Assembly (NCBI GenBank): GCA_024451685.1
Contig: JAMXCW010000001.1
Location: forward strand, 1-64,000
DNA: 64,000 nucleotides
Source: Candidatus Bathyanammoxibius amoris
Lineage (GTDB): Bacteria > Planctomycetota > Brocadiia > Brocadiales > Bathyanammoxibiaceae
Reading direction: 5' to 3'
Made by a program: the position numbers and the translations under genes. The notes beneath the pieces are model-generated. The model ran no database searches and had not been told where the DNA came from. It saw only the letters and a list, made by a program, of their open reading frames with translations. Shown in pieces: positions 30,554 through 35,706 of this stretch (its first letter is position 1; each line of letters starts with the position of its first letter).

Positions 30554-30583
30554 TTGACAGTGGATGGACATGGGGAGTAGAAT
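30554..30583 (+). promoter_or_regulatory. Promoter of the tandem B12-riboswitch leader
   Basis: TTGACA at 30554-30559, an 18-base spacer and TAGAAT at 30578-30583. The start point would be near 30590, just before the first aptamer. Confidence 0.75.
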
Positions 30584-30596
30584 CCCAAAAATCATT

Positions 30597-30772
30597 CTAC
30601 AGGTGTCCACGTTTGTGTGGGCTAAGAGGGAAGATGGTGTGAGTCCATCGCGGAGACCCGCCGCTGTATTCGGCGACGAACGCTGCAACAGGCCACTGTC
30701 CGTTTTTTATATTGTGTGGATGGGAAGGCGCAGCCAGTAGGAAGACCCGATAGTCAGAAAACCTGCCTGTAG
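30597..30772 (+). ncRNA. Cobalamin riboswitch 1
   Basis: P1 is formed by CTACAGG (30597-30603) and CCTGTAG (30766-30772). Inside are the conserved GGGAAG, GTGTGAGTCC, CCGCCGCTG, the B12 box AGGCCACTG, GGGAAGGCGC and the 3' GTCAGAAAACCTGCC. It is followed by an intrinsic terminator at 30826-30871, so ligand binding probably controls transcription. Confidence 0.9.
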
Positions 30773-30825
30773 ATGCTTCATAGTATACCTCGTGGTCAGG
30801 AGGCGTGAAGTGTTACATGACGATT

Positions 30826-30871
30826 AACCCGCATTCTTTCCTGCACGCAGGGAAAAGATGCGGGTTTTTTT
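30826..30871 (+). terminator. Intrinsic terminator of riboswitch 1
   Basis: AACCCGCAT (30826-30834) pairs with ATGCGGGTT (30858-30866), with CTTTCCTG/CAGGGAAAAG continuing the stem, and ends in a seven-T run. It lies between the two aptamers. Confidence 0.9.
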
Positions 30872-30917
30872 ATTGGGAGGCAGGCCAGCGAACGCTTATT
30901 AATTAAAAACTAAATCT

Positions 30918-31078
30918 GTGCAAGATGTAAGGGAAGGCAGTATCAATAATCTGCCGCTGCCCCGCAACTGTAACGGGGACGAAACCTGCACGTAGGCCAC
31001 TGTCCGTTCTTTTATGTTATGTGGACGGGAAGGCGCAGGGAGTAGGACGAACCGATAGCCAGGAAACCTGTCTTGCGC
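30918..31078 (+). ncRNA. Cobalamin riboswitch 2
   Basis: P1 is GTGCAAGA (30918-30925) with TCTTGCGC (31071-31078). It contains AAGGGAAGGC, GCCGCTGCCCCGCAACTG, TAACGGGGACG, the B12 box AGGCCACTG, GGGAAGGCGCAGGGAGTAGG and AGCCAGGAAACCTG. No terminator follows; the porin AGGAGG at 31106 is close, so control is probably at translation. Confidence 0.92.
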
Positions 31079-31117
31079 GTAACGTTATCCCGTTTCCGAG
31101 GGGAGAGGAGGATAGTA

Positions 31118-32614
31118 TTGAGCTACGTATTCTGCTGCGCAATTTGCTCCCTTGTTTTTGCCGAGGCGGCATTGGCAATAAATAGTGATGAGAAGCAGCT
31201 CAGAGACATGATGAATCAGGTGGAGTACTTGAAGGCCCGGATGGTCGAGAACGAAGAAAAGATAGCGATATTGGAGTCAGAACTGAAAGAGTTTCGCGGC
31301 CCTGTGCCCGTATCAGAGAGTTTTGAGGTGGCGGAGGAACCTCTCCATCCTCAAAAGAAGGAGCGGCTTGAAGAACGCGTCAAGAGGCTTGAGGACGTGG
31401 CGGAGAAGACCTTTGCCCTGGAGCCGATCGGAGAGATAAGAAGGGTCAGGGAATGGGTCTGTCCCGACGGGCACATCTATGACCACCCAAGCCCCGACTA
31501 CAGGTGTTACATCTGTGACAAGCCCCAGAGAGAGAGGTTTACCTACAGGAGGCACAAGTACGCCCGCAAGCAGACCGTCTCCGGCCTGATAGGGACAATG
31601 ATGGAGGAGGAGCTTAAGAAGCGGGTGTCCGTGGGCCTGAGCACGACGGGTGTTGTACAGCAGTCAGTGAACAGCCACAAAAATGACGAAACATCCGCCG
31701 AGGGGTCTTTTGACCTATTCTTCCTGCACAGACCCATGACAGGCTCAATACTCTTTGTAAACCTGGAGTCCATCGGGGGAAGCGGCCCGAACATCTTTTC
31801 CAGGACCCCCAATAACATGAACGACGACGTCTCCAGGGGTTCCCATCAGGACGAGGACGGGCTGGACAGGGTGAGCGTCAGAGAGGTCTGGCTGCAGTCT
31901 ACGTTTATGGAAGAAAGGCTGCGACTAGTGGCGGGCAAGATAGACCTGTCCAACTACTTCGACATGAATGCGGTAGCCAACGACGAGACCACACAGTTCC
32001 TCGGCAGCACCTTTGTCAACGACCTGGCCCTTTCCCTTCCTGATAACGCCCCCGGACTTGTCGGCTATTTTGACACAAAAAAGGGTTTCAGCCTCGGTCT
32101 CGGACTTCAGAGTAACGACAACTCAGGCGAAGCTGTCACTGACAGGCTCTACGGGATAGCGGAGTTAGACTACTATGCCCCGGAATTCCTCTTTGGACGC
32201 GAGGGGAATTACAGGTTTTGGGGCAGGTACAATGGTGAAGACCGTGGCCGTGCTTTTGGATTGAGTTTCGACCAGAAGTTCGCCGACAGGCTGACTGCAT
32301 TCAGCAGATATGGCATTACCGGCAATACGGCCCCGGGAGAGGTGGAGTGGACGTGGAGCCTGGGCCTTGGGCTCGAGTCACCGTTTCCATCCAGGAAAAA
32401 TGACCACACCGGACTGGCATTCTCTCAACTTAAGTTGCCCGGTGGGGAAAAAGAGGAGTTTATGGAGGTGTACTACAATTTTTTTATAACAGACCGCATG
32501 GCGCTTTCACTTGACTCCCAGGTATTTCTTAACTCTGTCGGCAACGGGGAGGATAAGACTGTTGATGAAGATCTCCTATCCGCATTTGGGTTTAGGGTTC
32601 AGATGGATTTCTAA
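31118..32614 (+). CDS. B12-riboswitch-controlled porin-like outer-membrane protein
   Basis: 499 residues. TTG at 31118 is the start (AGGAGG at 31106-31111, 6-base spacing); a frame opening at 31073 would overlap the aptamer. A signal (CCAICSLVFAEAALA) is followed by a coiled coil (about 25-100), a metal-ribbon-like segment with Cys115, His119, Cys130 and Cys133 (WVCPDGH...CYIC), and a long beta-strand-rich region ending FGFRVQMDF, as expected of a barrel. It resembles porins, not TonB receptors such as BtuB. Corrinoid uptake is inferred only from the riboswitches. Confidence 0.72.
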   Translation: MSYVFCCAICSLVFAEAALAINSDEKQLRDMMNQVEYLKARMVENEEKIAILESELKEFRGPVPVSESFEVAEEPLHPQKKERLEERVKRLEDVAEKTFALEPIGEIRRVREWVCPDGHIYDHPSPDYRCYICDKPQRERFTYRRHKYARKQTVSGLIGTMMEEELKKRVSVGLSTTGVVQQSVNSHKNDETSAEGSFDLFFLHRPMTGSILFVNLESIGGSGPNIFSRTPNNMNDDVSRGSHQDEDGLDRVSVREVWLQSTFMEERLRLVAGKIDLSNYFDMNAVANDETTQFLGSTFVNDLALSLPDNAPGLVGYFDTKKGFSLGLGLQSNDNSGEAVTDRLYGIAELDYYAPEFLFGREGNYRFWGRYNGEDRGRAFGLSFDQKFADRLTAFSRYGITGNTAPGEVEWTWSLGLGLESPFPSRKNDHTGLAFSQLKLPGGEKEEFMEVYYNFFITDRMALSLDSQVFLNSVGNGEDKTVDEDLLSAFGFRVQMDF

Positions 32615-32642
32615 CACGAAGACATAAAAAGGAGGTATGACT

Positions 32643-33830
32643 ATGCCAAGATTTTTTGCAGTGGCCGCCCTTACGGCGGCAGTGGTGATGTCCTCTCTCT
32701 GCGCTGACGCGAATGCCGCGTCACTCTCAGGGCGGGACATGGGTTCTCTCGTATTTGTTACCAACAGGGACAGTAACGACGTCGTTGCAATTGATACCGC
32801 GACCAACGTGCCGGTAAGCCGTTTTGAAATGGGCCCGTCGTGTGCGCCTCACATGGCTATGCTCTCGTACGACGGGAAGAAACTGGTAGTGCCGGGTACT
32901 GCCAGGAACGACCTGACGGTCTTTGACGTCGCCTCCGGCAAGATGTTGGCCCGGGTGGCGGTGGGAGCCAGCCCTGAACATTTTAGTGTCTCACCCGATT
33001 CCAGGTTTGCCTACGTAGGCAATTTTGACGAGGGTACGGTATCCGCCGTGGACCTTACCACATATAAAGAGGTGGCCCGGATAGAGGGCTTTGCCGAGCC
33101 GCACGGGGTGACCTTCTTACCCGACGGCTCAAAGGCCTATATCGCCAACTTCGGCGCCCATGAGGTAGGAGTGGTAGACACAAAGACCCATAGTCTTATT
33201 AAGCGGATTGCCGTGGGGAGCCATCTTAAGGTGGCCGCGCTCAACTCCGGCGGGCACGTTACGGAGATAAAGGGTGTAGCTAACGTAACCCTTACTCCCG
33301 ACGGCAGATACGCCTACGCCGCTGATGGTGATTCCGGAACCGTGACGGTAATCGACACCGCCACCGACAGCGTCGTAGCCGACGTTATGGTGGGAATGGA
33401 GCCGTGGCGTGCGTATTCTTCACCCGACGGCAGGTACATGCTGGTTCCCAATAACGGTGATGAGACCATCAGTGTCATAAGCACGGATACAAACGAGGTC
33501 GTTGCCACTATGAAAGGCGGCTCGGGAATGACCGGCATTAACTTTGTGGATGGCGGTAAGAAGGCCTATGCCATCTTCAGCAATGAAGGTGCCGTTGCCG
33601 TGTACGACATGGATAAGATGGTGGACGTTAAGCGGCTGAAGCTGGGCCGCCGGATGGCGCTGGAAACTGCCTCTACCGACCCCGCGGGGGAAAAGGTGTA
33701 TCTGGTATGCTCCACCACCAACTCCGTCTATGTGATAGACGGAGCGACCGACAGTGTCTCGGTTATTCCCAACGTTGGCAGTGGCCCGTGGGCAGTGACC
33801 ATACTGGGCGGTGCCAACTACTGTCATTAA
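32643..33830 (+). CDS. Periplasmic YVTN-type beta-propeller protein
   Basis: About 395 residues with a signal peptide (FFAVAALTAAVVMSSLCADANA) and six to seven propeller repeats, for example LVFVTNRDSNDVVAIDTATN, FAYVGNFDEGTVSAVDLTT and KAYIANFGAHEVGVVDTKT. ATG at 32643 is preferred because GGAGG at 32631-32635 is too close to the ATG at 32637. It follows the porin gene by 28 bases, so it is probably under the same B12 control. YVTN propellers bind ligands or cofactors in the periplasm; the ligand is unknown. Confidence 0.87.
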   Translation: MPRFFAVAALTAAVVMSSLCADANAASLSGRDMGSLVFVTNRDSNDVVAIDTATNVPVSRFEMGPSCAPHMAMLSYDGKKLVVPGTARNDLTVFDVASGKMLARVAVGASPEHFSVSPDSRFAYVGNFDEGTVSAVDLTTYKEVARIEGFAEPHGVTFLPDGSKAYIANFGAHEVGVVDTKTHSLIKRIAVGSHLKVAALNSGGHVTEIKGVANVTLTPDGRYAYAADGDSGTVTVIDTATDSVVADVMVGMEPWRAYSSPDGRYMLVPNNGDETISVISTDTNEVVATMKGGSGMTGINFVDGGKKAYAIFSNEGAVAVYDMDKMVDVKRLKLGRRMALETASTDPAGEKVYLVCSTTNSVYVIDGATDSVSVIPNVGSGPWAVTILGGANYCH

Positions 33831-33887
33831 TCCGGGAGCGCGTGCTGACGGATTGCGTGTCTCTGTTCGAGTTAAGCCACGGATATG

Positions 33888-33912
33888 GCGGGGCCTTTCT
33901 TGCCGGCCCCGC
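33888..33912 (+). terminator. GC-rich hairpin after the propeller gene
   Basis: GCGGGGCC and GGCCCCGC form an 8 bp stem around a 9-base loop. No T run follows, so termination would be partial at best. Confidence 0.4.
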
Positions 33913-33965
33913 TATGGCGGCTGGTTATCATCAGATCATGTATATGTAAAAATACTCGAAATATT

Positions 33966-34733
33966 ATGATGCGAAAAGTGCCGACCCTAACCAATTGTTA
34001 TCTTCCGCCGCTGGCGTTTGCTGCCATCTTATTACTGAGTTCCGTGGCCGCGGCACACCATAATTGGCAGGACGGTGTTGAAGTCCCAGCGGGGGGGTCC
34101 GCAGCCGCCCCTGTCAGGGAGACACCCCTTAAGTATAATGCGATCCGTGTGGAAAACGGCAGCAGCGTCTCCGGTGTAATCAGATTTTTTTCCGGTAAGG
34201 CCGTAATCGACGTCAAAGACGCCGTCGTCTACATAAAGGGCATACGGCGGGGCAAACCCTTCACGAGATTTTCAGGTGAGGGAACCCCCTTTATAGACCA
34301 GAAGGATTTTGTCTTCGTCCCGCATGTTACAGTTATCCCCGTGGGCGGCACGGTAGAGCTTAGAAACGCGGACCCTGAGATGCACAATGTGCACTCCTAT
34401 TCCGGCAAGAACGCGTCATTTAACGAGGCCATTCCATCGGCAGGCAAACCCGTCCTGAAAAAATTCGATTTTGTGGAGACGGTGCGAATCGGGTGCAATC
34501 TCCACCAGGAGATGTCCGCCTGGATAGTGACCAGAGATAACCCCTATTATTGTTTGACGAGCGGAGACGGCGGCTTTAATATTGAAAATATCCCTCCCGG
34601 CACGTACAAGCTGGCCGTCTGGCACGAGGATTTTGACAGGAAAGAACTCACCGCCGTGTATACAGACATAGACGTTGAACCCGGCAGTGAATTTGAGGTA
34701 GATTTTTATCTTTCTCGTATACATTCAGAATGA
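33966..34733 (+). CDS. Exported cupredoxin with carboxypeptidase-regulatory-like domain, paralogue 2
   Basis: About 255 residues. It has a signal segment (PPLAFAAILLLSSVAAAHH), copper ligands in cupredoxin order at His140 (MHNVHSY), Cys177, His180 and Met183 (GCNLHQEM), and the C-terminal GGFNIENIPPGTYKLAVWHEDF domain. The protein is collinear with that at 2310-3074, including the spacing between Cys, His and Met. The paired ATGs at 33966 and 33969 are both possible; there is no strong ribosome site. A hairpin separates it from the propeller gene, so cotranscription is uncertain. Confidence 0.8.
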   Translation: MMRKVPTLTNCYLPPLAFAAILLLSSVAAAHHNWQDGVEVPAGGSAAAPVRETPLKYNAIRVENGSSVSGVIRFFSGKAVIDVKDAVVYIKGIRRGKPFTRFSGEGTPFIDQKDFVFVPHVTVIPVGGTVELRNADPEMHNVHSYSGKNASFNEAIPSAGKPVLKKFDFVETVRIGCNLHQEMSAWIVTRDNPYYCLTSGDGGFNIENIPPGTYKLAVWHEDFDRKELTAVYTDIDVEPGSEFEVDFYLSRIHSE

Positions 34734-34806
34734 CACATGTAGACTGTTGTCTTTCTCAAGGTCATTGTATTTCAATAAACCCTTGCGCGACTCCCATAAT
34801 CCCTTT

Positions 34807-35706
34807 ATGAGAATAAGATTGCCATCTCTTCTGCTCACCATTTCTGTTTTTATATTATTGACTGCTTCCGTAGAGACAGTTTTGGCACAGGTGCGTTCCG
34901 GCAATGATAATGGTAAGAATGAACAACGCGCCGTGGAGATGGAGAAGGCCGTACGGGCTATTGAGGAGTCTTACTATACGGGGAAAGGCAAGGAGTTTGA
35001 CGTTACGGTCCTGAAGGCCGGGTCGCTTGAAGACGTAGTCGGTTCTCTAGATGAAGAGAGCAGGATTATTGACCGCAAACCGTCCTCCCTGGGGTTCGTT
35101 CGCGGCCTTGAAGAAGAGGGCACCATCGCAAGGGCTGAACTCCTTGAGCGGGACTTTAATTACATCGGTTACATGAGGCTGAAATACTTCAGCAGGAGGA
35201 CGAACAGGGATTTCAAAAACGCCATGGGCAACCTGGGGGACATGGATGGTTTTATACTGGACCTGCGTGACAACCCCGGAGGCTTTTTGCAGAGCGCGCT
35301 CGACGTGCTGGGTAATTTCATCTCCGGCGGCAAACTGCTGCTCACAGAGGTACGCAGGAAAGGAAGCGAACAGCACTTTGCTCATACAAGGGCCCTGCCC
35401 ACACTGACCGAAGACATCCCGATAGTCGTTCTAATAAACGCCTCCACCGCGAGCAGCGCCGAGATAGTCGCCGCGACCCTCAGGCACTACAGGGACGCCG
35501 TCATTGTCGGGCAGAAGAGCCACGGCAAGGGCACCATACAGGATGTGATACCCCTGAGCGCGAAAAAAACGCTTATACTCACCACCGGGGAGTATATACT
35601 TGCCGACGGCTCCTCATTCAGGGACTCAGGCATCGTGCCCGACCGTCTGGTCGAGGGCGAAAGGGAGCAGTTTGAGACCGCCGTGTCCATCTTGAAGGAT
35701 CGTTAG
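34807..35706 (+). CDS. S41-family C-terminal processing peptidase, apparently PDZ-less
   Basis: About 299 residues from ATG 34807, with a signal peptide (LPSLLLTISVFILLTASVETVLAQ). The catalytic Ser is in STASSAEIVAATLRHY and the Lys in GQKSHGKGTIQ; FILDLRDNPGG and SSFRDSGIVPD are standard S41 segments. The usual PDZ substrate-binding domain between the N-terminal helix region and the catalytic core is not recognisable; about 70 atypical residues stand there. It is probably periplasmic. The upstream frame from 34747 lacks support. Confidence 0.85.
   Translation: MRIRLPSLLLTISVFILLTASVETVLAQVRSGNDNGKNEQRAVEMEKAVRAIEESYYTGKGKEFDVTVLKAGSLEDVVGSLDEESRIIDRKPSSLGFVRGLEEEGTIARAELLERDFNYIGYMRLKYFSRRTNRDFKNAMGNLGDMDGFILDLRDNPGGFLQSALDVLGNFISGGKLLLTEVRRKGSEQHFAHTRALPTLTEDIPIVVLINASTASSAEIVAATLRHYRDAVIVGQKSHGKGTIQDVIPLSAKKTLILTTGEYILADGSSFRDSGIVPDRLVEGEREQFETAVSILKDR

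Follow-up and report, generated by a model that had tools for sequence, protein, structure and literature searches.

Two cobalamin riboswitches in series, apparently acting on transcription and then on translation, precede an outer-membrane operon in Brocadiales

Two cobalamin riboswitches standing in series ahead of one gene raise the question of whether they act at the same level of expression or at different ones. Such a leader occurs in Candidatus Bathyanammoxibius amoris (Planctomycetota, Brocadiales), in the window analysed here, a stretch of 64,000 nt (contig JAMXCW010000001.1, positions 1 to 64,000) on whose forward strand all features discussed below are located. An initial annotation, made from the sequence alone, had proposed that the first switch acts on transcription and the second on translation, giving a double gate that should leak little and respond more steeply. 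Tandems of this bi-mechanism kind were defined by Sherlock et al. (2022; PMC9481103), who listed SAM-II/SAM-V and related pairs; the 26 AdoCbl doublets in the same work were listed as pseudo-cooperative, with no AdoCbl bi-mechanism case, and the expression platforms were stated as not comprehensively evaluated. Morales and Merino (2025; PMC12452182) expect transcriptional control by the leading unit of a tandem and control at either level by the trailing one; the sections of that article consulted here mention no cobalamin pair of such a kind and no Planctomycetes. A literature search on anammox bacteria or Planctomycetes together with riboswitches found no report of a B12 bi-mechanism tandem in Brocadiales.

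Both aptamers matched the Rfam cobalamin covariance model RF00174 (cut-off 31.5 bits) completely and well above the cut-off. Aptamer 1 was located at 30584-30784 (104.7 bits, E 3.6e-25, model positions 1-189) and aptamer 2 at 30906-31089 (89.7 bits, E 7.5e-21). These hits exceed by about 12 nt on each side the cores at 30597-30772 and 30918-31078, which had been called complete aptamers from the letters alone; covariance scoring upheld both calls. To judge from the alignments, which are complete, a four-way junction core, a B12 box (at 30751 and 31056, 0-based positions) and complementarity between L5 and L13 can be recognised in each aptamer; the 5' hairpin that the Rfam model treats as optional is absent from the second. 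The 121-nt gap between the two hits contains only a P13 hairpin and a terminator, with no open reading frame. By sequence, the leader thus appears to carry two complete units of aptamer plus platform, of one ligand class, upstream of one reading frame. No further cobalamin aptamer was found in the 2.07 Mb draft genome.

Transcription of the leader can be assigned to a sigma-70-type promoter at 30554-30583 (TTGACA-18-TAGAAT), which scored 11 of 12 consensus matches, in line with its earlier description as a good promoter. A TTGACA promoter was present at about the equivalent position in 8/8 family members examined. The initial annotation had noted that an internal promoter between 30871 and 30918 would make the two switches independent; scans with an assumed sigma-70 consensus found no such promoter in the inter-aptamer region, either in the window or in seven relatives. 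In all eight family members, both aptamers would therefore be transcribed from a single conserved promoter.

The platform of switch 1 begins with its P13 hairpin at 30775-30811 (fold -10.6 kcal/mol), for which relatives have a hairpin at the equivalent position. Its outer stem pairs 30775-30781 with 30805-30811, its inner stem pairs CCUC (30788-30791) with GAGG (30800-30803), and its loop contains GGUC (30794-30797), the proposed kissing partner of L5 GACC at 30655-30658. The pairing of the two loops is proposed from the loop code seen across Brocadiales, where the L5 code GGACCCG/GGAGACCCG accompanies an L13 of GGUN in terminator-type platforms. P13 is followed by an intrinsic terminator at 30826-30871, a hairpin of about -23 kcal/mol (inverted repeat 30826-30841/30851-30866) ending in TTTTTTT. 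A simple terminator scan did not detect it, yet the energy and the seven T agree with the strong terminator that had been annotated at this place, and by sequence the first unit would act on transcription.

How P13 may control this terminator is suggested by the 3' strand of P13 (30797-30807), a candidate antiterminator that can form a duplex of -10.3 kcal/mol with the terminator 5' arm (30832-30843). When the segment was folded in isolation, the ensemble gave the antiterminator 0.62 vs 0.27 for P13; in the whole leader, folded with neither ligand nor pseudoknots, P13 reached 0.70 vs 0.11 for the antiterminator. Since the winner flips between the two calculations, the two states must be close. 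A swap and shuffle test found antiterminator duplexes everywhere, with purine/pyrimidine composition explaining most of their energy. The duplex of the window's switch 1 was no better than composition-matched shuffles, and the antiterminator step is for this reason one that we infer.

The platform of switch 2 is of another make. Its P13 hairpin (31086-31114) carries L13 GGGG at 31100-31103 and, in its 3' half, the Shine-Dalgarno sequence (SD) AGGAGG at 31106-31111, 28 nt beyond the aptamer end as first annotated; the TTG start codon stands 6 nt further, at 31118, and opens a 498-aa reading frame. These positions agree with the earlier description of a TTG-started gene preceded by AGGAGG with no terminator. 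A terminator match after aptamer 2 (-9.9 kcal/mol) was discarded as spurious, being located within the coding sequence and having a poor T run; no real intrinsic terminator follows aptamer 2 in the window, so that the two-terminator arrangement of a pseudo-cooperative tandem is not seen. Neither is there one platform common to both aptamers, as in cooperative tandems of the glycine type, the first platform being placed between the aptamers. With its SD inside P13, the second unit would act on translation.

Within this hairpin, UUUCC (31093-31097) has two alternative partners, GGAGA at 31102-31106 and the GGAGG of the SD at 31107-31111. Pairing with the SD would leave the GGGG loop available for docking on L5 CCCC (30960-30963), its proposed kissing partner according to the loop code of relatives. 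Both pairings are possible in most of the 49 distinct relatives, and in three sequences (including G025 and G047) a change of CC to UC is accompanied by a change of the SD from GGA to GAA, which keeps the second pairing. In ensemble folding, which excluded pseudoknots, the SD of switch 2 was not seen to be freed in the unbound state. A kissing loop between L5 and L13 combined with SD sequestration is familiar from the btuB-type cobalamin riboswitch of E. coli (see references in PMC9600662), which switch 2 resembles in its CCCC L5, its GGGG L13 and its SD-holding hairpin; unlike the btuB-type switch, it is preceded by a predicted transcriptional cobalamin switch of another lineage.

Taken together, the leader is very probably a coenzyme B12 riboswitch of the bi-mechanism tandem type, which would shut off an outer-membrane operon for corrinoid or cobalt acquisition in two steps. 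A single promoter would give an RNA carrying both switches. In B12-bound aptamer 1, L5 GACC would dock on L13 GGUC and keep P13 closed; closed P13 would withhold its 3' strand (30797-30807) from the terminator 5' arm, allowing the terminator to fold and end transcription. Transcripts that read through would carry aptamer 2, whose CCCC L5, once B12 is bound, would dock on the GGGG loop of the second P13, and as the stem of this hairpin includes the SD of the first gene, ribosomes would be excluded. In the absence of B12 both switches would be released and the operon expressed.

The two benefits that the initial annotation had expected from a double gate fared differently. Low leakage is plausible, since leaks multiply, but it holds only if the gates are independent. 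The steeper response was kept only in part: for two independent one-site gates in series, the calculated 10-90% span narrows at most from 81-fold to 40-fold (effective Hill 1.19), a slight gain that shrinks when affinities or leaks differ and disappears with 10% leak at each gate and a tenfold difference in affinity. The advantage would lie mainly in a lower floor and in late control of existing mRNA, not in a steep switch. Such an advantage has been argued for SAM-II/SAM-V (PMC9481103).

The arrangement was found well beyond the window. Among 62 Brocadiales genomes, cobalamin aptamers were present in 56 and tandem pairs in 43, from which 47 pairs were extracted. A terminator follows aptamer 1 in 47/47 pairs, and an SD-type P13 hairpin with the conserved core UUUCC-GAGGGG-AAAGGA follows aptamer 2 in 43/47, the start codon standing 5-8 nt past the SD across pairs; these 43 have no intrinsic terminator after aptamer 2. 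The division of labour proposed at the outset, with switch 1 on transcription and switch 2 on translation, thus appears to be the common pattern. The other four pairs, all in Brocadiaceae (G014, G017, G027 and G043; loci L041-L043 and L064), have two terminators, and these too show two different L5/L13 codes within one leader. More tandem pairs are likely to exist in Brocadiales, because several hits counted as solo have another B12 box where that of a partner aptamer would be expected. Outside the order, at least one tandem pair (G132) was present among the matches listed for 142 genomes, which form part of an evenly drawn set of 149 Planctomycetota genomes.

The two switches of a pair also differ in descent. 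In the aptamer tree, 43/43 SD-type second aptamers and 11 SD-type solo hits form one clade (support 0.986) that contains no terminator-type aptamer. L5 and L13 covary with switch type (GACC/GGUN vs CCCC/GGGG): terminator-type switches have L5 GGACCCG with L13 GGUN, or, in a Brocadiaceae subtype, L5 GGUACC with L13 NGUA, and SD-type switches have L5 CCCC in 43/43, with a GGGG loop opposite in 42. These codes are taken to represent two functional, mutually non-matching kissing loops, and they would make the leader a test bed for the avoidance of cross-talk between neighbouring riboswitches. To judge from tree and codes, the window holds two specialised, co-retained switches of separate old lineages, not a fresh duplication. 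Over 64 nt of P6, the two aptamers in the window (30705-30768 vs 31010-31073) are 84% identical; despite this, a recent tandem duplication is contradicted by the tree, and the similarity suggests gene conversion instead.

Other readings of the leader have to be weighed against these observations. It is highly improbable that only one of the window's switches is functional, the other being a relic, or that separate promoters drive the two. Aptamer 2 does score 15 bits below aptamer 1, but its 89.7 bits are far above 31.5 and within the range of relatives' second aptamers, its conserved boxes, L5 and L13 are all intact, no internal promoter was seen in 8/8 family members, and the pair is retained across the order. 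A chance match or the decay of one copy, the latter being what the initial annotation had named as fatal to its proposal, is excluded by these scores together with the conservation. Control of a single level, with both switches acting on transcription and the second doing so by Rho-dependent termination after a translation block, is quite improbable. Translation-blocking riboswitches often also trigger Rho-dependent termination, as stated for mycobacterial switches (PMC11260477), and four related pairs do carry two terminators; against this, the second platform in 43/47 pairs holds the SD within a hairpin close to the start codon and offers no intrinsic terminator, and Rho dependence would supplement SD occlusion, not substitute for it.

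A third reading, in which the switches differ in affinity or corrinoid preference and the leader responds to two different concentrations or corrinoids instead of serving as a redundant double lock, is somewhat unlikely. It is favoured by the separate old lineages of the aptamers, by the absence of the optional 5' hairpin from the second, and by the variation of corrinoid selectivity among cobalamin riboswitches (PMC9600662). The common binding core speaks against it, as does the match of both aptamers to one Rfam model with a large peripheral domain. This reading is compatible with a bi-mechanism tandem.

Bi-mechanism tandems have been described for SAM; the present one is built of two B12 switches. 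With SAM-II/SAM-V and the mixed SAM-II doublets (PMC9481103), the leader shares a one-ligand aptamer pair of which the first has an intrinsic terminator and the second gates the ribosome-binding site. Unlike SAM-II/SAM-V, its ligand class is cobalamin, its aptamers both belong to RF00174 yet descend from two old lineages, each with its own L5/L13 code, and pairs of this kind are conserved across an anammox order. The AdoCbl doublets of the same list likewise place two serial cobalamin riboswitches ahead of one gene; unlike them as listed there, the second platform here is predicted to be translational, and 47 pairs occur in one order. The locus is thus a natural test bed for why two sensors for one ligand are kept in one leader, and it would allow the value of transcriptional and of translational control to be measured separately.

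The regulated gene (31118-32614) encodes the 498-aa protein, an OprB-like porin with an N-terminal coiled coil (PF04966, 46.5 bits, cut-off 22.9), whose orthologues in other Brocadiales are 39-70% identical and stand under the same leader. It is followed by a secreted YVTN-type beta-propeller (32637-33830; TIGR02276, 171.8 bits), as in most relatives, then by a cupredoxin/carboxypeptidase-regulatory-like periplasmic protein (33885-34733; weak PF13620, synteny in four family members) and by an S41 peptidase (34747-35706; PF03572, 138 bits, synteny), which is possibly part of the same operon. The propeller matched BtuG structures at superfamily level (33 bits) and hydrazine synthase beta more strongly (76 bits). 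A BtuG-like role was not adopted for it, as the BtuG match is superfamily-level only and is outranked by hydrazine synthase beta and by a surface-layer protein of archaeal origin. The true hydrazine synthase beta of the genome is encoded apart from the propeller (C13; 686 bits, cut-off 560), and marks the host as an anammox bacterium.

Since no TonB-dependent receptor barrel, CbiM or FecCD/BtuC-type permease was found in the window's genome, whereas CbiC (262 bits) and ten B12-binding-domain matches were, the porin-propeller operon is a candidate for the entry of cobalt or corrinoids across the outer membrane. Porin and propeller recur under a like leader in other families of Brocadiales. Tandem pairs stand mostly before outer-membrane uptake genes; those not ahead of the porin precede TonB-dependent receptors or, in a single case, a periplasmic binding protein. 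Solo terminator-type switches stand mostly before cbiM (MHITEGILP proteins; the one tested against PF01891 scored 167 bits), such loci including L079-L081, L088, L090-L093 and L097-L099. In the family member G007 (L039, L032), the pair leads a TonB-dependent receptor, ExbB-like, CobN-like and TonB genes and then porin and propeller; the window has this operon in a version without the TonB part. The recurring porin-propeller pair, the TonB-dependent receptors elsewhere and the gene order of G007 fit regulation by B12. In Brocadiales, which are globally important nitrogen removers, B12-linked outer-membrane uptake genes would then be mostly under a two-level B12 lock, with solo switches mostly at cbiM.

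One subgroup of first switches shows a further feature. In 22 distinct type-1 first switches of Brocadiaceae (L045, L047 and L053-L057 among them), the 3' strand of P13 carries a near-perfect SD, AAAGGAGGTG. In 18/22, a start codon 6-10 nt past AAAGGAGGTG is followed by an in-frame stop abutting the terminator, where shuffles predict 4.1 (an excess inflated by shared ancestry); the frames have three to five codons, mostly five. Among other terminator-type platforms such frames occur in 10/55, the background level. A formal match occurs in the window, GTG TTA CAT GAC GAT TAA at 30810-30827 (whole match 30798-30827), but the frame is conserved neither in G001 and G004 nor in its genus, and with close relatives lacking it no functional mini-ORF is claimed there. 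A short ORF with an SD inside the platform is shared with the B12 riboswitches of M. tuberculosis (PMC11260477); those have translated uORFs, no intrinsic terminator and no tandem, whereas the Brocadiaceae frame ends against a terminator. It is conceivable, though unlikely, that B12 hides the SD of switch 1 in Brocadiaceae and that, when B12 is absent, a ribosome on the mini-frame covers the terminator 5' arm and permits read-through; alternatively, the SD-like sequence could serve merely as an antiterminator. If the ribosome reading were true, both switches would sense B12 by SD hiding, and one of them would have transcription as its output by way of a ribosome-assisted antiterminator.
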